This document shows, piece after piece, positions 4,288 to 26,994 of a DNA stretch of 26,994 bases (the first letter of the stretch is position 1; every line of letters begins with the position of its first letter). The notes under the pieces were generated by a model, which made no database searches, was not told the DNA's origin, and worked only from the letters and a program-made list of their open reading frames with translations. This DNA comes from a virus. The translations under genes and the position numbers were made by a program. The stretch is taken from positions 1 through 26,994 of IMG/VR virus record IMGVR_UViG_3300032291_003921. One strand, given 5' to 3'.

Positions 4288-7200
4288 ATGGCACAACAGA
4301 TTATTGACACAGGTGCTGCTGCTAACGACGGCACTGGTGAACCGTTACGCGACGCATTCAACGCTGTAAATGAAAATTTCACTGAGATTTACACTGCTGG
4401 CCCCGTGGGCAGCAACGTGGTCATCTCCGGCAACACCGTCACTGTCACTGGTGTCAACAACAATCTGGTGTTGCAAGCCAATGGCATAGGCAATATTCAA
4501 GCCAATTCAACCATCATGCCCAGCATTGATGCTGTGTATGACATTGGTGCTCCTGCAAAAAGAATTGACACAGTTTATGCTCAATATCTTGTGGGCAATG
4601 GATCGGGTATTACAGGGGTCACTGCGGCAGCAGCCGCAAACATCAGTCTAGGTCAGAGCAATGTCACTGTGACTGCTGGCGGCCCAGTCACTGTTGGCAT
4701 TCAAAACACCAGCAATGTTGCAGTATTTGCTGCGGCCAGTACCACATTCAAAGGCAACTTGTTGCCAGCTGCCAATGTAACTTACAATCTAGGCAGTGCC
4801 ACACAGGCCTGGAATGACTTGTATTTGAGTGGCAACACAGTGTTTCTCAACAGTGCCACTATAACCAGCAACGCCACAGCATTGACATTTACCAATCAAG
4901 CTGGCGGCACATTTGTATTAGATGGCCCAGGACAATCAGGCAGCAATGCCATCAGCAACGGCAACAGCAGTGTGGCCATTGCTGCAGCCGCAGGCAACAC
5001 AGTGATCACTGTGAATGGTCTGACTCGCGGCACGTTTAACAATGTGGGCTTAGGTGTTACTGGGCAAGTTTCAGCCAGCGGCAACGTTGTGGCTGTTGGC
5101 AATATTGAAGGCGGTAATGTTGTTGCGTTGGCAGCTGTCAGCGCAGTGAGTATAAATGCCACAGGCAATGTTGTGAGTGGCAATATAGTTACCAGCGGTA
5201 TAATCACTGCCACAAGCAGTGTGTTCACCAATGCACAAGTATCTGCTGTTGGCAACATCACTGGTGGCAATATTATCACTGCTGCTGCTGTCAGCGCAGC
5301 CAGTGTGAGTGTGTCAGGCAATGTCACTGGCGGCAATATACTTGCACCTGGTGCAGTAATAGCAACTCTGTTGACTGGTGGTAATCTTCAAGTCACTGGT
5401 GGTATCAGTGGTAGTACCGTGACTGCTGTTGCCAACATCACTGGTGGCAACATTGTGACCAGTGGTGTAATAACAACAAGTGCTAATGTTGTGGGCGGAA
5501 ACGTGGTCACTGCTGGACAAGTCACAGCCACAGGCAACGTCACTGGTGGCAATGTCAATGCTACAGCATTGAGTTTGAGTGGCAATGTTGTAAGTGCCTT
5601 GAATGTCACTGCCAATGTCACAGGCGGTAATGTCACAGCCGTGTCCTCTGTGACAGCTCAAACAGTAACGGCTGTGGCCAATGTCACTGGTGGAAACATC
5701 AACACTGTGGGCGCGGTCAGTGCCACAGGCAACGTTCGTGGCGGTAATATTACCACCAACAACATTGTTTCGGCAGCTGGTAATATTGTAACTGATCAAT
5801 TTTTTATTGGCACTTTTGTAGGCAACATCACTGGCAACATCACAGTGCCTGGTGTCAACACACAGATGCTGTACAACGATTTTGGCAACGCAGGCGCTAG
5901 TGCAGGCCTGACATTTGACTATACCTCCAATTTGATGGTGTTGAGTGGCAATGCCAATGTTGGCAATTTAAACACCGTGGGATCAGTGAGTGCAGTTGGC
6001 AACATTATTGGTAACTACATTCAAGGAAATGGTTCGTTGTTGACTGGCATTGCAGCCAGTTACGGCAATGCCAACGTGGCTGCATACTTGCCCACATACA
6101 CAGGTAATTTGGCAGCACTCCAAGGCAATGTCACAACTACTGCCAACGTTCAAGGCAGTTATATTTTAGGCAATGGTGCTTTCTTGACTGGCGTTGCTGC
6201 CAGTTATGGCAACGCCAATGTGGCTGCCAACTTGGCTGCGTTTGGCACCAATCCCATATCAACTGCTGGCAACATCACTGGCGGATATATTTTAGGTAAT
6301 GGTAGTCAATTAACAGGTGTTACCGCCACAAGCATTGGTACACTGCCAAGTTTGAGTGTGACAGGCAACACTGTGACAGGCAACTTGAATGCATTAGAAC
6401 AAGTCAGTGCCGTGGGCAATATCACTGGTGGCAACATTCTTTTTGGCATATTCAAATTACTTGGTACTGGTGAGGCACAAGTTGGTAATTTAACTGTTAC
6501 TAATGGCCCAGGGACTGGCAACATTGTTGCTGGTAACATCATAAGTGCCACAGGTAACATATTGAGTGGTAGTAATATCAGCGCAACCACCAACGTCATT
6601 GGCGGTAACTTGCTGGCCGGTTCAGGTGTTATTACCACAACTGGCAACATAACAGGCGGTAACATATTGGCTGGGTCAGGTGTGATCAGCACTGGTGGCA
6701 ATGTCAATGGCGCAATATTCAATGGTAATGTGGCATTTACCACTGGCACAGTGTCAGGCAGCGGCAACATCACTGGCGGCAACATTGTTGTATCAGGTGT
6801 GCTACTGTCTACCAATACTGTTTCGGCTGCTGGCAATGTGATTGGTGGCAACATCAACACAGGTGGAAATGTCAGCACTTCAGGCAATGTGATTGCTCAA
6901 GACATCAGAGTTGGTCCAGGTATCACTGGCGGCACCATAAGTGCGCTGGGCAATATCACCAGTGCCAACACATTAAATGCTGTTAGTTTGAGTTTGAGTG
7001 GCAATGTTGTCAGCGCAGTCAACTCAACATCTGCAATTACCACCACAGCCAACATCACTGGCGGTAACGTCAACACCAGCGGGTTGATCACTGCCACAGG
7101 CAATGTGATTGGTGGCAATGTTCAAACTGCCGGTCAAATCACTGCCACAGGCAACATCACCACTGCTGCCAACATTGCTGGTGGCAATCTAAGCATCACC

Positions 7201-10200
7201 GGAGCATTTGCTCCCAGTACCGTCACTGCCACAGGCAATGTGGCAGGTGGCAACTTGACCACAACTGGTCAGATATCATCATCGGGCAATATCACCACTG
7301 CTGGATATTTTGTTGGCAACTTTGCAGGCAACATCACTGGTAACATCACAGTTCCTGGATCAAATACCCAAGTGCTGTTTAATTCCAATGGCAACGTTGG
7401 TGCTGGCGCTGGGCTGACTTTTGACACTGCTGGACCAAACTTGCTCACAGTGGCAGGCAACACCCAGTCAGGCAACTTGAGAACCACAGGATTGGTTTCA
7501 GCAGCTGGCAACGTCAATGCAGGAAACATTATTACCTCAGGTGCTGTGAGTGCCACAGGCAATGTTTCAGCCACAGGCAATGTGCTGGGCGGCAATGTAA
7601 TTAGTTCTGCAGATGTCAGTGCTGTAAGTGTTAGTGCATCAGGCAACGTCACTGGCAGTAACATAGTCACAGCAGGTGCAGTAATCGCAACTGGTAATGT
7701 CAACACTCTGGCCAATGTCAACGGCGCTAATTTGGTTGCATCAGGATTGATCTTTGCGGTTGGCAACATCTCTGGTGGCAACCTGTCAGGTACCAGTATT
7801 TTGGGCACATTGACCACAGCCGCACAAAACAACATTACTTCGGTTGGCACCTTGAGCAGTTTGGCTGTGACAGCCAATATTGCTGGTGGCAATTTGACCA
7901 CTGCTGGTCAAGTTTCGGCAGCTGGAAACATCACCGGCAATTATTTCATTGGCAATGGATCTGCTTTGACTGGTGTGCTGGCCACTGGCATTGGTACATT
8001 GGCCAGTTTGAGTGTGACCGGCAACACAGATTCAGGCAATTTGCGTACAGCTGGGCAGGTCAGTGCCGCAGGCAATATCACTGGCGGTAACTTGTCAGGT
8101 ACCAGCATTATTGGTACACTAACCACAGCCGCACAAACCAATATCACATCAGTGGGCACACTGACCAGTTTGGGAGTAACTGGCACCGTCACTGGTGGCA
8201 ACATCAACACTGCTGGTCAAGTTTCGGCCACAGGCAATATTACAGGTGGCAACTTGTCAGGTACCAACATCGTGGGTACGCTGGCCACAGCCGCACAAAC
8301 CAATATCACGTCAGTGGGCACATTGACCAGTTTGGGAGTGACTGGCACCATCACTGGTGGCAACATCAACACTGCTGGTCAAGTTTCAGCCACAGGCAAC
8401 ATCTCTGGCAATTATTTCATTGGTAATGGATCGTTGTTGACTGGCATTTCAGCTGGTAGTTCCTATAGCAATGCCAACGTGGCTGCATACTTGCCCACAT
8501 ACACAGGTAATTTGATTGCACTTACGGGCAATGTGATCACAACTGCCAACGTCACAGGTGGCAACATATTGACTACAGGCGCAGTCAGTGCCACTGCCAA
8601 CGTCACAGGTGGCAACATTGTCACAGGCGGTGCTGTCAGCGCCACAGGTGCTGTCAGTAGTGTGGCCAACGTTGTAGGCGGCAATATTACCACCGGTGGA
8701 CAGATTTCTTCTACAGGCAATACCACCGGTGGAAATCTCCGTACAGCAGGTCAAGTAAGTGCAACTGGCAACATTTTTGGTGGCAATATTAACTCAGCAG
8801 GATTGAGTTTGAGTGGCAACGTGATCAGTGCTCTGAACATGGTCACCAACATAACAACCACTGCCAACGTCTCTGGTGGCAATTTAATTGTGTCAGGTAT
8901 TGCCACAGTCACAGGCAATATAACTGGTGGCAATATCAACACCGCAGGTGCAGTCAGCGCCACAGGTAATGTTGTGGGCGGCAATATTGTTACAACAGGG
9001 TCAGGCGGCAACATCACTGGTGCCAATGTAATTTCAACCACCACACTCAGTGCCACAGCCAATGTGATTGGTGGCAACATATCAACCGCAGGTCAAGTAA
9101 GTGCAACTGGCAACATTACCAGTACAGGCAATATTTCAGGTAATTTTTACATTGGCAACGGAAGTTTGTTGACTGGTGTAGTGGCCAGCGGCGTTGGTGT
9201 GTTGTCAAATCTCAGTGTCACTGGCAATATCATCACCGGCAATTTGAATTCATTGGCCGCAGTCAGTGCTGTGGCCAATGTTGTGGGCGGGAACGTGGTC
9301 ACAGCAGGGTTGATCACAGCCACTGGCAACATCATCAGTGGCAATTTAAATGCAGCAGGATTGAGTTTGAGCGGCAACGTGGTTTCTGCACTCAATGTTA
9401 CCAGTAACATCACTGGTGGCAATATCAACACTGCTGCTCAAGTAGTGGCCACAGGCAACATCACTGGTGGCAATATCAACACAGCAGGATTGATTTCAGT
9501 TGTGGGCAACATCATTGGTGGCAATATCAACACTGCTGCTCAAGTGGTAGCCGGAGGCAATATTACTGGTGGTAATTTGCTCACAGCAGGATTGATATCA
9601 ACCACAGGTAACTTGGTGGCTGCCAATGTCAACGCAACTTCAATCAGTCTCAGTGGCAACGTGATATCTGCACTGCCAGTGACTGGTGCTGTTTCGGGTG
9701 CTAGTTTCAGCGCAGTTGGCAACGTCACTGGCGGCAACGTTCTTACTCCAGGCATTGTTTCGGCTGCTGGCAACGTCACAGGCGGCAATGTAATCAGTTC
9801 AGCAGCAGTAAGCGCGGCCAGTGTGAGTGTGTCAGGCAATGTCACTGGTGGAAACATACTCACTGGTGGTTTGATGTCAAGCACAGGCAACATCACTGGT
9901 GGCAATATCAATACTGCAGGGCTAGTTAGTGTAACAGGCAACGTCACAGGTGGAAACTTAATTACCAGTGCGTTGGTACAAGGTCAAACCGTCAGTGCCA
10001 CAGCCAATGTGATTGGTGGCAACATATCAACAGCAGGGTTGATCACAGCCACAGGCAATGTCACTGGTAATTATTTTCTAGGCAACGGCTCCCAGCTGAC
10101 TGGTGTAGTGGCCACTTCCATTGGTGTACTGCCAGATCTCAGTGTCACTGGCAATATCATCACCGGCAATTTGAATTCATTGGCCGCAGTCAGTGCTGTG

Positions 10201-12399
10201 GCCAATGTTGTGGGCGGCAATGTAATCAGCTTGGCTTCTATCAGTGCAGTAAGTGTGAGTGCGTCGGGCAACATCACTGGCGGCAATATCAATACTGCAG
10301 GGGTAATTAGTGCCACAGCCAATATCACCGGTGGCAATATTGTCACGTCAGCTGCTGTGAGTGCTGCCTCAGTATCAGCGTCAGGCAACATCACTGGCGG
10401 TAATATCAACACTGCTGCTCAAGTGGTGGCCACAGGCAACATCACTGGCGGCAACTTGGTAACTGCGGCCACAGTGCAAGGCCAAACTTTTACAGCCACA
10501 GGCAATGTGATTGGTGGCAATATTTCAACAGCAGGTTTGGTCACAGCCACCGGCAATGTCACAGGTGGTAATTTGGTAACTGCGGCCATAGTACAAGGTC
10601 AAACCATCAGTGCCACAGCCAATGTGATTGGTGGCAATATTTCAACAGCAGGTTTGGTCACAGCCACAGGCGACATCACTGGTGGCAACTTGGTAACAGC
10701 AGGTTTGATCACAGCCACCGGCAACGTCACAGGTGGAAACTTACTCACCAATGGATTGATATCTAGTACAAGCAATGTGATTGGTGGCAATATTTCAACA
10801 GCAGGCTTGATCACAGCCACAGGCAGCATCACAGGTGGAAACTTACTCACTGGTGGTTTGATTAGTTCTACAGGCAACATAACATCAACTGGCAACGTCA
10901 CAGGTGGAAATCTATTCACCGGTGGCTTAATTAGTTCAACTGGCAACATAACATCAACTGGCAACGTCACAGGTGGAAACTTACTCACTGGTGGTTTGAT
11001 TAGTTCTACAGGTAACATCAATGGCGGCAACATCAACACCAGCGGACAGATTTCTTCTACAGGCACAATCACTGGTGCCAATGTAATTTTAGCTGCCATA
11101 CTCAGTGCCACAGGCAATGTGATTGGTGGCAACATATCAACAGCAGGTGTAGTTACAGCCACAGCCAATGTGATTGGTGGCAACATATCAACTGCAGGCT
11201 TGATCACAGCAGTAGGCAATGTCGTTGGTGGCAACATATCAACCGCAGGCATAGTTACCGCCACAGCCAATGTGATTGGTGGCAACATATCAACCGCAGG
11301 CTTGATCACTGCCACTGGAAATATTGTTTCAGGTGCGTTAATTAGTGCCGCGGGCAATGTGTCGGCTGCGGGCAATGTGCAGGGTCTAAACTTCATTGGT
11401 AATTTAATTGGTAATATTGCACTGACCAATTCTAGCAACAGTCAGGTGCTGTTTAACAATGAAGGTCTAGTAAGTGGTGATTCAGGACTGATATTTGATT
11501 ATGCTGCCAATGCACTCACAGTAGGCGGTGCTATTGTAACCACAAACGGTGGATCATTGACTGTGGCTGGTGCTGCTGCTATAACTGGCAACATCTCTAC
11601 CACAATTGGCAACATTGGCGGCGGCAACATCATAGCCACAACATTGGTAAGTGCTGGTGGCAATGTGATTGGTGGCAACATATCAACTGCAGGTCTAGTA
11701 ACTGCCACAGGCAATGTTACCGGTGGCAATGTCAATGCCACAACAGCAGTCAGTGCCACAGGCAATGTAGTTGGCGGCAATGTTAGCACAGCAGGACTGA
11801 TCACTGCCACAGGTAACATCACTGGTGGCAATATTATAACAGCCGCATTGGTACAAGGGCTCACAGTCAGCGCCACAGCCAATGTGATAGGTGGTAATGT
11901 ATCCACAGCAGGATTGATCACAGCCACAGGCAACGTCACTGGTGGCAATTTGATCACCGGCGCTCAAGTTGTTTCTGTAGGTAATGTCACTGGTGGCAAT
12001 ATCAACACTGCTGGTGTGGTCAGTGCTACAGGTAACATTACGGGTGGTAACTTGAGTGGCACCAGTATTATTGGCACACTGACCACAGCCGCACAAACCA
12101 ACATTACATCAGTGGGCACGTTGACAAGTTTGGCAGTGACTGGTAACGTAGTGGGTGGCAATTTAATAACCAATAGTGGATTTGTGTTTGCAACAGGCAA
12201 TGTCACTGGCGGCAATTTGAATGCAGCAGGATTGAGTTTGAGCGGCAATGTGGTCAGTGCAATTAACATGACACAAAACATCACAACAACAGCCAATGTC
12301 AACGCCAATAATATCAACGCTACTAGCACGATAAATATCAACAACGCTAGAGTGGCAACCATAGATGACGCGGCTGCGTTGGCAATAGCACTAGGATAA
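4288..12399 (+). CDS. Giant repeat tail fibre, 2703 residues
   Basis: The N-terminus reads QQIIDTGAAANDGTGEPLRD and FNAVNENFTEIY, a start widespread in cyanophage-type fibres, followed by two YDIGAPAKRIDTVYA / YNLGSATQAWNDLYL units. From about residue 250 to near the end the protein is a run of 17-residue repeats of the form GNITGGNINTAGQVSAT. Other modules recur within it: GNGSLLTGI units (about seven), LSLSGNVVSALNVT units (about six), TSIIGTLTTAAQTNITSVG units (four), and three linker domains of the type VLFNSNGNVGAGAGLTFD (nt ~5800, ~7310, ~11390). Charged residues are very rare and I see no Cys. It ends INNARVATIDDAAALAIALG. Known: such repeats form long beta-structured shafts. Inferred: an elongated fibre that may trimerise. 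The start has GAGGA (4271-4275) 12 bases upstream. Long antisense open frames here are by-products of the repeats. Confidence 0.9.
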   Translation: MAQQIIDTGAAANDGTGEPLRDAFNAVNENFTEIYTAGPVGSNVVISGNTVTVTGVNNNLVLQANGIGNIQANSTIMPSIDAVYDIGAPAKRIDTVYAQYLVGNGSGITGVTAAAAANISLGQSNVTVTAGGPVTVGIQNTSNVAVFAAASTTFKGNLLPAANVTYNLGSATQAWNDLYLSGNTVFLNSATITSNATALTFTNQAGGTFVLDGPGQSGSNAISNGNSSVAIAAAAGNTVITVNGLTRGTFNNVGLGVTGQVSASGNVVAVGNIEGGNVVALAAVSAVSINATGNVVSGNIVTSGIITATSSVFTNAQVSAVGNITGGNIITAAAVSAASVSVSGNVTGGNILAPGAVIATLLTGGNLQVTGGISGSTVTAVANITGGNIVTSGVITTSANVVGGNVVTAGQVTATGNVTGGNVNATALSLSGNVVSALNVTANVTGGNVTAVSSVTAQTVTAVANVTGGNINTVGAVSATGNVRGGNITTNNIVSAAGNIVTDQFFIGTFVGNITGNITVPGVNTQMLYNDFGNAGASAGLTFDYTSNLMVLSGNANVGNLNTVGSVSAVGNIIGNYIQGNGSLLTGIAASYGNANVAAYLPTYTGNLAALQGNVTTTANVQGSYILGNGAFLTGVAASYGNANVAANLAAFGTNPISTAGNITGGYILGNGSQLTGVTATSIGTLPSLSVTGNTVTGNLNALEQVSAVGNITGGNILFGIFKLLGTGEAQVGNLTVTNGPGTGNIVAGNIISATGNILSGSNISATTNVIGGNLLAGSGVITTTGNITGGNILAGSGVISTGGNVNGAIFNGNVAFTTGTVSGSGNITGGNIVVSGVLLSTNTVSAAGNVIGGNINTGGNVSTSGNVIAQDIRVGPGITGGTISALGNITSANTLNAVSLSLSGNVVSAVNSTSAITTTANITGGNVNTSGLITATGNVIGGNVQTAGQITATGNITTAANIAGGNLSITGAFAPSTVTATGNVAGGNLTTTGQISSSGNITTAGYFVGNFAGNITGNITVPGSNTQVLFNSNGNVGAGAGLTFDTAGPNLLTVAGNTQSGNLRTTGLVSAAGNVNAGNIITSGAVSATGNVSATGNVLGGNVISSADVSAVSVSASGNVTGSNIVTAGAVIATGNVNTLANVNGANLVASGLIFAVGNISGGNLSGTSILGTLTTAAQNNITSVGTLSSLAVTANIAGGNLTTAGQVSAAGNITGNYFIGNGSALTGVLATGIGTLASLSVTGNTDSGNLRTAGQVSAAGNITGGNLSGTSIIGTLTTAAQTNITSVGTLTSLGVTGTVTGGNINTAGQVSATGNITGGNLSGTNIVGTLATAAQTNITSVGTLTSLGVTGTITGGNINTAGQVSATGNISGNYFIGNGSLLTGISAGSSYSNANVAAYLPTYTGNLIALTGNVITTANVTGGNILTTGAVSATANVTGGNIVTGGAVSATGAVSSVANVVGGNITTGGQISSTGNTTGGNLRTAGQVSATGNIFGGNINSAGLSLSGNVISALNMVTNITTTANVSGGNLIVSGIATVTGNITGGNINTAGAVSATGNVVGGNIVTTGSGGNITGANVISTTTLSATANVIGGNISTAGQVSATGNITSTGNISGNFYIGNGSLLTGVVASGVGVLSNLSVTGNIITGNLNSLAAVSAVANVVGGNVVTAGLITATGNIISGNLNAAGLSLSGNVVSALNVTSNITGGNINTAAQVVATGNITGGNINTAGLISVVGNIIGGNINTAAQVVAGGNITGGNLLTAGLISTTGNLVAANVNATSISLSGNVISALPVTGAVSGASFSAVGNVTGGNVLTPGIVSAAGNVTGGNVISSAAVSAASVSVSGNVTGGNILTGGLMSSTGNITGGNINTAGLVSVTGNVTGGNLITSALVQGQTVSATANVIGGNISTAGLITATGNVTGNYFLGNGSQLTGVVATSIGVLPDLSVTGNIITGNLNSLAAVSAVANVVGGNVISLASISAVSVSASGNITGGNINTAGVISATANITGGNIVTSAAVSAASVSASGNITGGNINTAAQVVATGNITGGNLVTAATVQGQTFTATGNVIGGNISTAGLVTATGNVTGGNLVTAAIVQGQTISATANVIGGNISTAGLVTATGDITGGNLVTAGLITATGNVTGGNLLTNGLISSTSNVIGGNISTAGLITATGSITGGNLLTGGLISSTGNITSTGNVTGGNLFTGGLISSTGNITSTGNVTGGNLLTGGLISSTGNINGGNINTSGQISSTGTITGANVILAAILSATGNVIGGNISTAGVVTATANVIGGNISTAGLITAVGNVVGGNISTAGIVTATANVIGGNISTAGLITATGNIVSGALISAAGNVSAAGNVQGLNFIGNLIGNIALTNSSNSQVLFNNEGLVSGDSGLIFDYAANALTVGGAIVTTNGGSLTVAGAAAITGNISTTIGNIGGGNIIATTLVSAGGNVIGGNISTAGLVTATGNVTGGNVNATTAVSATGNVVGGNVSTAGLITATGNITGGNIITAALVQGLTVSATANVIGGNVSTAGLITATGNVTGGNLITGAQVVSVGNVTGGNINTAGVVSATGNITGGNLSGTSIIGTLTTAAQTNITSVGTLTSLAVTGNVVGGNLITNSGFVFATGNVTGGNLNAAGLSLSGNVVSAINMTQNITTTANVNANNINATSTININNARVATIDDAAALAIALG
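8098..8403 (+). repeat. Near-identical 162-base tandem duplication inside the giant fibre
   Basis: The segment beginning GGTACCAGCATTATTGG at 8098 recurs from 8260 with a 162-base (54-residue) offset. Both copies encode GTxIxGTLxTAAQTNITSVG and then GTLTSLGVTG, with only scattered base changes. The likeness falls off near 8403, where the second copy runs into a GNYFIGNGS module. Confidence 0.8.
10831..11013 (+). repeat. 69-base tandem repeat, almost three copies
   Basis: ACAGGTGGAA begins at 10831, 10900 and 10969, giving an exact 69-base (23-residue) period. The units encode GGNLLTGGLISSTGN plus an extra ITSTGNVT and differ at only a few bases. The third copy stops after GGLISSTGN. Confidence 0.8.
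11125..11328 (+). repeat. 51-base tandem repeat, four copies
   Basis: GGTGGCAACATATCAAC occurs at 11125, 11176, 11227 and 11278, exactly 51 bases apart. The units alternate two variants (one with GVVTA/GIVTA, the other with GLITA), which suggests that a 102-base pair of units was duplicated. Confidence 0.82.
12330..12337 (+). promoter_or_regulatory. Late-promoter-like octamer GATAAATA
   Basis: GATAAATA differs at one base from TATAAATA. It lies inside the end of the giant fibre gene, 65 bases before the ATG at 12403. It could give extra transcription of the 12403-20299 gene run. A chance match within coding sequence is possible. Confidence 0.35.
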
Positions 12400-23893: not shown

Positions 23894-25027
23894 ATGAGCA
23901 CCACATTCAAAATTAAACTGCTGAACCCTCGCAGTTCTGACACCAATATCCTGGGCATGGAACCAACCTGGCAGATCCAGCCCACGGAGTATCGTGCAAG
24001 CAAGTTAAGCCAGGCGTTCTCATGGTACAACTATTTCTATGGCAAAAAAGATGCCCGAGAAATGATTGTCAACTACTTGGAAACACATGACCGCCGGGCA
24101 GATGTGCGCCTGCTCAAAGGCATTCCAGATTCAGCCATTCGATTGACCACAGGTTGGTTGTGCCGCATGAGCATGGTGGGCCTGGAACTGCATGACACAG
24201 AACAACTCAAATTAGAAAATCAATTGAGAGAAATACTGGACAGCAAACAAAACACCGTGGAAGAAACGCCGGAAGAACCAGCGGTGCCCAAGATCACCAT
24301 TCAAGATCGTCTGCGTGAAAAAGCCAACGAATGCGACGGCGAGCTAGAGGGCTTGTTTGATGATTTCTTGTTGAGTGGTGCCAAGATGACTGCAGACTTC
24401 AAGCCTGTGGTGATCATGCGTGGATTGAACATAGCACCACAAATGGTCAGTCAGATTTCAGACAACTGGAAACGCAAGCTCTCAGAATTTGAGCGTGTGG
24501 TCGAAGGCAAAGACGCACAACTGGTTGAGGGCTACAGTCATCTCTCCAAGATTCAAATGCGCAACGTGATCAAGTTTTGCGAAGCAGTGATCAACGACTG
24601 TGGTGCGTATGTGCAGATCAAGAAGGTAGAACGCAAGCCACGCAAGGTTCGAGCAGTGCCACCTGAGAAACGTGCAGCCAAGTTCAAAATCCTGGCAGAG
24701 TTTGCAGAACTCAAACTGAAATCATTGCCGGCTGCAAGCCTTGTGGACAAGAGTGAGGCCTGGTTGTATGACACAAAAAAACGCAAACTGATCCACTTGG
24801 TGGCAGATGAGTATGCCAAGGCATTCACTGTCAAAAACAACTCAATCATTGGGTTCTCAACTGTGGACACAGTACAAAAGACTGTGCGCAAACCAGCAGA
24901 TGTTGTGAAAGCAATGCAAGCCGCAGGCAAACCAGCGGCACGTAAGCTCTTCAAAGATCTTACAACCACAGAAACAGCATGGAATGCCCGTGGCACAGAG
25001 AATTTAGTCATCCTTAAGAGCTGGTAA
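23894..25027 (+). CDS. Early protein of unknown function, 377 residues, basic centre
   Basis: This soluble 377-residue protein has no recognised domain. Residues 1-100 are a mixed fold (KIKLLNPRSSDTNILGMEP, AFSWYNYFYGKKDAREMIV). An acidic linker (~115-135, TVEETPEEPAVPK) leads into a helical zone ~135-240. Then comes a very basic stretch at 242-266 (KKVERKPRKVR, PPEKRAAKFK), of the type that binds nucleic acid, and a C-terminal part rich in Lys and Arg. Similar proteins occur in uncultured marine phages without a known role, as far as I recall. The ATG follows AAGGAG, a near-consensus promoter precedes it, and the radical SAM gene starts 23 bases after its stop. Inferred: an early nucleic-acid-associated protein, for example in takeover of host transcription or in replication. 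This is a guess from charge only. Confidence 0.72.
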   Translation: MSTTFKIKLLNPRSSDTNILGMEPTWQIQPTEYRASKLSQAFSWYNYFYGKKDAREMIVNYLETHDRRADVRLLKGIPDSAIRLTTGWLCRMSMVGLELHDTEQLKLENQLREILDSKQNTVEETPEEPAVPKITIQDRLREKANECDGELEGLFDDFLLSGAKMTADFKPVVIMRGLNIAPQMVSQISDNWKRKLSEFERVVEGKDAQLVEGYSHLSKIQMRNVIKFCEAVINDCGAYVQIKKVERKPRKVRAVPPEKRAAKFKILAEFAELKLKSLPAASLVDKSEAWLYDTKKRKLIHLVADEYAKAFTVKNNSIIGFSTVDTVQKTVRKPADVVKAMQAAGKPAARKLFKDLTTTETAWNARGTENLVILKSW

Positions 25028-25050: not shown

Positions 25051-26016
25051 ATGTATAAAATAGTAGATGACAACCCCGCTGACCCACGCAAACTTATCTC
25101 TAACACTGAGTTCTATATCACCAATGTTTGTAATCTAAATTGTGTTAATTGTAATCGCTTCAACAATTTTGATTTCAAAGGATATCAAAAATGGAGCGAT
25201 TACAAAGAAATTTATACACAATGGGCTCAGCATGTGAGGTTACAACGAGTTACCATACTGGGCGGGGAACCACTGCTCAATCCCACAATCTTGGATTGGA
25301 TTGACGGCATCAATGGTCTATGGAATATATCTGTACAGATCTTAACCAACGGCACTCGCCTAAACAAGATTGCTGGCTTGTATGACCGCCTGGTCAAGCC
25401 AGTTGATCCTAACAAACCAGGAATTAAAAATTGGATAGGCGTGAGCTTGCACAATCAGAATGATCGTGATCGATGTTTTGAAGAAGTAAAAAGTTTTTTG
25501 CACGGAGACGTGAGATATGTCCACCACACAGATCCACTCAATGTTGACAATGCAATGACCTTTGGTGCGTCACATGCGTTTGTTGACAGCAATGATGTTA
25601 GAATACCCATATGGGAATATGACAGTTTTTATAGAGCCGCAGTGCATTTGAACGACCATGGAAAATTTACGTTGTACAATAGTGATCCAGATAAGTCGCA
25701 TGGTGCTTGTGGGTTTGCAATGTATAAATGTTATCACTTTATACGAGGAGCTTTATATAAATGCGGACCGGTAGCATTGTTTCCAGAGTTTGATGCTCAA
25801 CATCATTTAGACATTACAGATCAAGATCGAGATTTATTAAAAAGTTATGCTCCGTTGCAGGTAGACCAGTTTGCTGACCGCGGATTACAATTTCTAAGTG
25901 AGATTGACCAGGTGATTCCTCAATGTAAGTTTTGTCCTGAGTTTTCTCATAATGAAGAAAACTCAGTGGTATTTGCTACACTAAAAAAGACTGGTGCCAC
26001 TAGCGGATTTGAATAA
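25051..26016 (+). CDS. Radical SAM enzyme with auxiliary-cluster cysteines, copy 1
   Basis: The 321-residue protein has the radical SAM signature C27-x3-C31-x2-C34 (VCNLNCVNC), which binds the catalytic [4Fe-4S] cluster, and GGEP at 71-74, which contacts the SAM amino group. Further cysteines C220, C227, C238 and the pair C292-x2-C295 (QCKFCPEF) lie in the C-terminal third and fit a Twitch/SPASM-like second iron-sulfur site. Known: members with such extra sites modify peptides, sugars or other substrates. The substrate is unknown here. No clear Shine-Dalgarno precedes the ATG at 25051. The stop overlaps the next ATG (TAATG). The gene is more AT-rich than its neighbours: lines at 25081 and 25141 count 35% and 30% GC, against 53% for the line at 24121. 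Confidence 0.9.
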   Translation: MYKIVDDNPADPRKLISNTEFYITNVCNLNCVNCNRFNNFDFKGYQKWSDYKEIYTQWAQHVRLQRVTILGGEPLLNPTILDWIDGINGLWNISVQILTNGTRLNKIAGLYDRLVKPVDPNKPGIKNWIGVSLHNQNDRDRCFEEVKSFLHGDVRYVHHTDPLNVDNAMTFGASHAFVDSNDVRIPIWEYDSFYRAAVHLNDHGKFTLYNSDPDKSHGACGFAMYKCYHFIRGALYKCGPVALFPEFDAQHHLDITDQDRDLLKSYAPLQVDQFADRGLQFLSEIDQVIPQCKFCPEFSHNEENSVVFATLKKTGATSGFE

Positions 26017-26678
26017 TGACAACAGTGTTGTTAACATTAGGTGACAGTTGGCCCCAAGGTGTAGAATTACAATCCACTGATCAGTGCTACGGAGAAATAC
26101 TACAACATCTTTTAAAATTTGATGAATTTTACAATTACGGACAAGGTGGTTCCAGCAACGAACACATGATTCTACAGTTGCAAAATTATTTTGAAAATCA
26201 TCATCGGACAGATCATCAAGTCACTGCTGTGTTTTTTTTAACCAACCCGCATCGCACAGTTTATTTTCCGCCTGACGCAGGTTTCAATGTTCATGGACAC
26301 CACCGACAAAACTGGAACCAAGAAGCCCGAGAAGTTTTTATGAAAAATTGGATGCATTTTTATTCTGACGAAAATGCAGTCATGAGAAGTAGCCTTGCCG
26401 TCACTGCACTGCAACAGTGGTGCAAGTTGCACAATATTGATGACTATTATTTTTCTGGTTGGATAAAATATACACAATGGTTGCCAATGGTTAACACTGA
26501 CAAAATATGGGCAAAAGGTCTGGAAACCGCTGCAGACTGGTTTGGTGCAGCAGATCACAATGGCGAACATTTGACAAATGTTGACAACAACCAGTACATC
26601 CGCCCTAATTTTGCACACCCAAACCAACTTGGGCATCAATTGATTGCAGATAAATTACAGCTATGGATGCAAGCATGA
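26016..26678 (+). CDS. SGNH/GDSL-type hydrolase
   Basis: The 220-residue protein shows the four SGNH blocks in order: GDSW with the likely nucleophile Ser11, YGQGGSSN with oxyanion-hole Gly (44 or 45), LTNP with Asn77, and NFAHPNQLGH with the likely catalytic His201. The usual Asp of the DxxH block is Asn198 here, so the exact acid residue is uncertain. No signal peptide or membrane segment is seen, which suggests it works in the infected cell or virion. Known: SGNH enzymes cleave or transfer acyl groups on lipids and sugars. Inferred: it may de-acylate or acylate the product of the neighbouring radical SAM enzymes. It overlaps both neighbours (TAATG upstream, ATGA downstream), so the three genes look like one translational unit. 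A line at 26101 counts 33% GC. Confidence 0.82.
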   Translation: MTTVLLTLGDSWPQGVELQSTDQCYGEILQHLLKFDEFYNYGQGGSSNEHMILQLQNYFENHHRTDHQVTAVFFLTNPHRTVYFPPDAGFNVHGHHRQNWNQEAREVFMKNWMHFYSDENAVMRSSLAVTALQQWCKLHNIDDYYFSGWIKYTQWLPMVNTDKIWAKGLETAADWFGAADHNGEHLTNVDNNQYIRPNFAHPNQLGHQLIADKLQLWMQA

Positions 26679-26994
26679 TTGATCGCCCTGTGTTTAACAA
26701 AATTGAAGTTTACATTACCAATGTGTGTAATTTAACTTGTGATCAGTGTAATCGCTTCAACAATTTTGATTTCAAAGGTTGGCAGCGGTGGAGTGATCAT
26801 GCTGACCAATACAAGCAGTGGGCAAAACTAATTGACCTAAAAGCCATTACCATCATGGGCGGAGAACCTCTGCTGAATCCCACAATTGTAGAATGGATAC
26901 ATGGCCTCAATGACGCTTTTGGAATTGACGTACAAATCTTAACCAACGGCACACGATTGAACAAGGTACCAGGTTTGTATGAAGCCATTGCCAA
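26675..26994 (+). CDS. Radical SAM enzyme, copy 2, cut by the window end
   Basis: The first 106 residues of a second radical SAM protein are present, running past the window end. It has C18-x3-C22-x2-C25 (VCNLTCDQC) and GGEP at 62-65. By hand alignment about two thirds of the ~92 comparable residues are identical to copy 1, and the N-terminus lacks the first ~10 residues of copy 1. A 32-base stretch (26747-26778) is identical to 25150-25181 in copy 1. The ATG at 26675 overlaps the SGNH stop as ATGA. Whether copy 2 keeps the auxiliary cysteines cannot be seen. It probably arose by duplication and may act on a related substrate. Confidence 0.87.
   Translation, partial: MIDRPVFNKIEVYITNVCNLTCDQCNRFNNFDFKGWQRWSDHADQYKQWAKLIDLKAITIMGGEPLLNPTIVEWIHGLNDAFGIDVQILTNGTRLNKVPGLYEAIA

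Follow-up and report, generated by a model that had tools for sequence, protein, structure and literature searches.

The closest described relatives of the enzyme studied here are two radical SAM enzymes of antibiotic biosynthesis, SpeY (spectinomycin) and BtrN (butirosin), which combine a partial barrel with a four-Cys twitch domain. SpeY is labelled a dehydrogenase by its PDB title, and BtrN is a twitch radical SAM alcohol dehydrogenase whose two-electron oxidation uses an auxiliary cluster ligated by four Cys (PMC9012708). Function is not readable from sequence or fold among twitch and SPASM enzymes, where dehydrogenases are interspersed with cyclases and peptide cross-linkers (PMC6231123). 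Regarding phages, one report describes pelagimyophages that vary in the radical-SAM gene cassettes carried within a host recognition cluster rich in glycosyltransferases (PMC7029224), and Synechococcus phage S-SCSM2R encodes a "radical SAM superfamily maturase" located between glycosyltransferases, a DegT aminotransferase and an amidinotransferase.

The locus described here was found in a 26,994-base IMG/VR virus record, called the window hereafter, and consists of a radical SAM gene (rSAM1), a gene for an SGNH/GDSL-fold protein and the start of a second radical SAM gene (rSAM2), within which the right end of the window falls. Like SpeY and BtrN, the rSAM1 protein is predicted to have a partial barrel and a four-Cys twitch domain and is of similar size, but it shares only about 18% identity with them, is phage-encoded and SGNH-coupled, and lies outside any antibiotic cluster. 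The S-SCSM2R protein is a homologous twitch radical SAM enzyme (HMM E 3e-24) of about 26% identity, and neither the SGNH family nor the TEKT family described below was found in the stretch of that phage examined. The pelagimyophage cassettes resemble the present one in that radical SAM genes come and go beside glycosyltransferases in aquatic T4-like phages; the available text of that report (PMC7029224) mentions neither a family nor an auxiliary cluster nor an SGNH partner, and locates the cassettes in a tail-fibre cluster, whereas the slot in the window lies in a neck/tail gene block. Those radical-SAM cassettes by glycosyltransferases are a precedent, and the original prediction, made from the window alone, went too far in stating that no such phage system had been described.

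All three genes were found where they had been predicted (Table 1). The proposed T4-like setting is borne out by a tail sheath stabiliser (PF16724, Pfam E 5e-25) and by the same g377-neck-structural-sheath gene order in the Pseudomonas jumbo phage PA5oct. The cassette is bordered on the left by g377, which has homologues in PA5oct, phiM12-like phages, Cr30 and other phages, and in relatives on the right by a neck gene. Of the two gene overlaps announced for the cassette, TAATG, joining the rSAM1 stop to the SGNH start, is present at 26014-26018; ATGA depends on rSAM2 beginning at an in-frame ATG at 26675, the listed reading frame being taken from 26663. At 39.5-41% GC the cargo genes lie below the structural genes on either side (46-50%), which fits acquired cargo. 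The structural region of the window also contains one open reading frame of 2,703 aa (4288-12399, +), and no tRNAs were found in the window.

Table 1. Features of the cassette and its left border, in window coordinates.
Feature	Position	Strand	Remark
g377, conserved phage protein, left slot border	23894..25027	+	phrog_11903, E 4e-54
rSAM1, twitch-type radical SAM enzyme (predicted), 321 aa	25051..26016	+	39.5% GC
CX3CX2C radical-SAM cluster motif (C27, C31, C34)	25129..25152	+	141/141 distinct relatives
GGEP motif, residues 71-74 of rSAM1	25261..25272	+	
Twitch motif first half, CX12GX4C (C220, C238)	25708..25764	+	both Cys in 141/141
Twitch motif second half, CX2C (C292, C295)	25924..25935	+	141/141
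SGNH/GDSL-fold protein (predicted), 220 aa	26016..26678	+	1-bp overlap with rSAM1 stop
SGNH block I GDS (G9, D10, S11; predicted nucleophile Ser11)	26040..26048	+	58/58
SGNH block V, N198-F-A-H201	26607..26618	+	His in 58/58; Asn for the DxxH Asp in 56/58
rSAM2, second twitch radical SAM enzyme (predicted), N-terminal 110 aa, separate slot lineage	26663..26994	+	cut by contig end; alternative start 26675

The rSAM1 product matches the Pfam Radical_SAM model (E 2.4e-9). The cluster motif, the GGEP motif and the additional C-terminal cysteines reported in the original prediction are all present, and the fear that the auxiliary cysteines would be absent from relatives was unfounded, since C220, C238, C292 and C295 are, like C27, C31 and C34, invariant in 141/141 distinct full-length members. 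The first half of the twitch motif, defined as CX9-15GX4C (PMC6231123), includes in rSAM1 a glycine (G233); in the 141-member alignment this position holds G in 101 members and A in 39. C227, the fifth of the extra cysteines, occurs in 88/141 and is lacking in the rSAM2 lineage, and is thus not a required ligand. With four invariant auxiliary cysteines only, the family departs from the SPASM seven-Cys motif for two auxiliary clusters. A structural model (pLDDT 91.2, pTM 0.90) retrieved SpeY as top match (Z 19.5, 244 residues aligned, 3.1 A), well clear of all other folds; BtrN (Z 12.7) came next, ahead of SuiB (11.7) by about 1 Z unit only, with SkfB at 10.8 and all others at or below 11.7. 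SpeY was also first in the A3 profile search (E 2.8e-6). The alignment and the model together support well a predicted architecture of a radical SAM core plus a twitch domain with one four-Cys auxiliary cluster site, with conserved 3-Cys and 4-Cys sites in a SpeY/BtrN-like fold. A fold shared with SpeY and BtrN does not prove the reaction of rSAM1.

The middle gene alone matched the Pfam GDSL models weakly (E 0.07); 24/30 of its relatives match PF00657, and its AlphaFold model (pLDDT 93.6) retrieved GDSL/TesA structures as the top Foldseek matches (E 5.9e-6), so that it is assigned by its predicted model to the SGNH superfamily. With TesA, the 4rw0 GDSL family and the PatB O-acetyltransferase it has in common the fold, the GDS nucleophile motif and the block V His, at 9-17% identity; it differs from them by its block V and by a conserved family-specific stretch. 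The catalytic residues, whose loss in relatives had been another concern, are retained in part: S11 and H201 are invariant in 58/58 relatives, and the catalytic Asp of block V is replaced by Asn in 56/58 and kept as Asp in two, which are L015 and L039 in a smaller alignment. N77, present in 57/58, is set in LTNP instead of the block III GxND. With Asn in place of Asp, the protein could work through a catalytic dyad, act as a transferase or have no activity. The family-specific stretch, DWFG...HNGEHL (residues 174-186, window 26535-26573), is nearly invariant and might be the source of a replacement acid. No rSAM-SGNH fusion proteins were found.

The original prediction regarded two paralogous radical SAM genes flanking the SGNH gene as the module. 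A search for this arrangement yielded one further contig, L003, whose DNA is 97.7% identical to the window over 2,972 bases covering the whole cassette; elsewhere only the rSAM-SGNH pair recurs. L003 made it possible to read past the end of the window, and contains a complete rSAM2 orthologue of 300 aa (L003:2641-3543) followed by the neck gene. The presence of the same junction in this independent contig rules out an assembly chimera. The rSAM2 start matches Pfam Radical_SAM (E 1.8e-10) and groups with solitary slot radical SAM genes (L245, L165), apart from rSAM1, so that the order seen in the window resembles a pair of adjacent insertions into the slot. The three-gene cassette was therefore rejected as a functional unit, the order being limited to the window and L003 and rSAM2 being a separate lineage; the recurring unit is the rSAM-SGNH pair.

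In jumbo relatives the gene order is head gene (reverse), g377, the slot, neck, exonuclease, dNMP kinase and sheath. A survey anchored on g377 alone gave 80 loci, 74 of them closed, and in 49/74 the slot was empty, as it is in the cultured PA5oct, where the neck gene directly follows g377. The remaining closed slots held rSAM followed by SGNH (15), rSAM (7), rSAM followed by a gene of a family conserved around a TEK motif and named here TEKT (2), or SGNH (1), with no other content; a pooled deduplicated set included a few slots with other genes (266, 237 and 73 aa). The SGNH reading frame overlaps the rSAM stop in 42/42 non-redundant loci, a count based on longest ORFs, a choice that favours overlap. 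Over 42 loci, pairwise distances correlated at 0.79 for rSAM-SGNH versus 0.33 for rSAM-g377, and partial correlations were 0.76 versus 0.00. The co-variation signal was weaker after thinning to 26 loci (0.57 versus 0.31; partial 0.51 versus 0.12; Spearman 0.36 versus 0.19). SGNH-fold proteins, partly belonging to other families, are likewise encoded after rSAM at unrelated positions: beside gp32/UvsX-like genes in L015, adjoining a DNA polymerase and together with GT25 in L070, in multi-rSAM clusters in L170 and L172, and in the setting of L201. The co-variation, the overlapping or abutting genes and the optional slot give good support to the view that a radical SAM gene with an auxiliary cluster site and an SGNH-fold gene form an optional, mobile, co-inherited module of T4-like jumbo phages.

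Two scans recovered at least 487 and at least 475 related stretches in viral contigs, and the rSAM family is present in at least 475 viral contigs. No cellular relative was confirmed in 84,980 cellular genomes searched with rSAM and SGNH profiles (pattern scan plus tblastn), in scans that depend on short peptide patterns and that distant cellular kin could escape; a cellular origin, for which there were pattern matches only, was rejected. The family occurs in just two of 50,697 phage records, the cultured or single-cell phages S-SCSM2R and Marine virus AG-345-D19, both distant, and no close relative of rSAM1 or of the SGNH protein was found among phage isolates. The twitch radical SAM family is thus confined to viral records among those searched. 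Some copies of rSAM-family, TEKT and amidinotransferase genes in four contigs (G003, G004, G005, G006) are split or have in-frame stops, which suggests decaying cargo.

Outside the neck slot, the family is found next to GT25 (E 4e-13), DegT aminotransferase, hexapeptide transferase and SDR genes. A 349-kb contig (G001) encodes epimerases, two DegT proteins, PIG-L, a cytidylyltransferase, Asn synthase and further radical SAM/SPASM proteins, and around the S-SCSM2R homologue there are genes for glycosyltransferases, 2OG oxygenases, an aminotransferase and a protein annotated as inosamine amidinotransferase. Direct reading of three contigs showed a syntenic SDR-DegT-TEKT-TEKT-amidinotransferase block in each, and DegT and amidinotransferase genes are both present in 9/11 jumbo contigs searched. 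The amidinotransferase matches arginine:glycine amidinotransferase (E 3e-17) and inosamine-phosphate amidinotransferase (E 6e-12), and among the 50,697 phage records was found only in the two that hold the rSAM family. TEKT genes number 3-14 per contig in 10/10 contigs; with a non-significant GT10 match (E 0.66) and no Pfam match, assignment to GT10 was rejected, and the GT10 match together with the neighbourhood suggests a putative glycosyltransferase family. In about 25 other loci, mostly devoid of SGNH, rSAM directly precedes phage NifU_N/IscU and IscA-type genes, consistent with cluster loading, and one contig of 346,856 bp combines both contexts and carries rSAM in three copies.

Because rSAM-family relatives lie in sugar-building gene clusters, the cassette most likely alters a sugar coat during infection; we give a probability of about one half to the rSAM1-SGNH pair serving a phage glycan programme as an optional tailoring module with translational coupling of its two genes. 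We infer for rSAM1 a sugar oxidation or epimerisation: a 5'-deoxyadenosyl radical would abstract hydrogen from a hydroxyl-bearing carbon of a sugar (or cyclitol), and the fully Cys-ligated auxiliary cluster would accept a second electron, so that a keto (or epimerised) sugar results. The SGNH protein would presumably add or remove an acyl group on that same glycan, and the changed glycan, whether borne by the virion or by the host surface, could alter recognition (adsorption, superinfection, defence). The glycan-biosynthesis neighbourhoods of family members favour the virion glycan or host surface molecule originally proposed as target, the target itself remaining presumptive. The neck slot itself holds no sugar gene besides occasional TEKT, and the IscU/IscA-adjacent loci, the Asp to Asn change and the putative status of TEKT count against glycan tailoring. 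We consider it rather speculative that SDR, DegT, amidinotransferase, a SpeY/BtrN-like radical dehydrogenase, an acyl-modifying SGNH protein and many glycosyltransferase-like paralogues make up a phage-run aminosugar or aminocyclitol pathway of aminoglycoside-like logic, which would decorate the virion or the surface of the host with a guanidino- or keto-sugar and in which the radical step would be swapped as a cassette.

Alternatively, rSAM1 might cross-link or oxidise a phage structural protein or a small peptide, as in RiPP maturation, with the SGNH protein removing or adding an acyl group. Twitch and SPASM domains are common among peptide maturases, the slot sits among virion genes, NCBIfam peptide-maturase models gave sub-threshold matches, and SuiB and SkfB are the next folds after BtrN. 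We regard this possibility as unlikely: SpeY is far above the peptide enzymes in the structure search, the core begins near residue 14 of 321, leaving no room for an RRE-like N-terminal domain, and rSAM occurs in several unrelated neighbourhoods with differing flanking genes. A RiPP cassette was rejected, as 64 rSAM-holding slots have a median of 28 and a maximum of 265 uncovered bases, leaving little room for an adjacent precursor ORF.

Modification of a nucleotide, as by viperin, or of DNA, through a hypermodified-base pathway, appears quite improbable. Sub-threshold QueE and viperin matches, the dNMP kinase and exonuclease genes downstream, and GTP cyclohydrolase I and PTPS genes in the 349-kb relative point in this direction, but the matches cover the core only and are far under the cut-offs (QueE, TIGR03963, 38.8 bits against 260; viperin, NF038283, 35 and 41 bits against 180), so that neither identity was retained. 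Viperin moreover lacks an auxiliary cluster, the dNMP kinase and exonuclease genes are present whether the slot is filled or empty, and a separate QueE-like gene was seen by eye in that phage. We also think it quite improbable that rSAM1 has a metabolic or Fe-S related auxiliary role, with a host cofactor or a small molecule as its target and no connection to glycans. The IscU/IscA-adjacent loci would fit such a role, but these proteins would help to load the clusters of any radical SAM enzyme, and the DNA-polymerase-adjacent and multi-rSAM contexts hold sugar genes instead.

The analysis defines a virus-only radical SAM family with a predicted auxiliary cluster, abundant in aquatic phages and nearly absent from cultured ones, and ties it to a recurring SGNH partner and to one slot whose filled and empty states make a natural contrast. 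Glycan tailoring by this pair offers a testable case of phages editing glycans by radical chemistry; if true, receptor or virion surface chemistry would be changed in ways that ordinary glycosyltransferases cannot provide.

Several neighbouring genes were also recorded. NifU_N (IscU-like) and IscA-like genes lie directly downstream of rSAM at L174:8496-9192 and in about 20 related loci. In G001, PTPS/QueD-like and QueE-like genes (L308:15266-15787 and from L308:19325), plus GTP cyclohydrolase I, likely constitute a 7-deazaguanine pathway. The jumbo-phage amidinotransferase (L298:17404-18429 in G001, with equivalents in 8 other contigs), which follows the TEKT and DegT genes, is 70-88% identical and more conserved than the rSAM cargo. 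Between DegT and TEKT lies a very large ORF of 667-1267 aa (L298:11314-15117 and L317:5449-8280, both on the minus strand), which had no PHROG match and is built of repeated PxDPPYIYVFGNQW units whose number sets its length.
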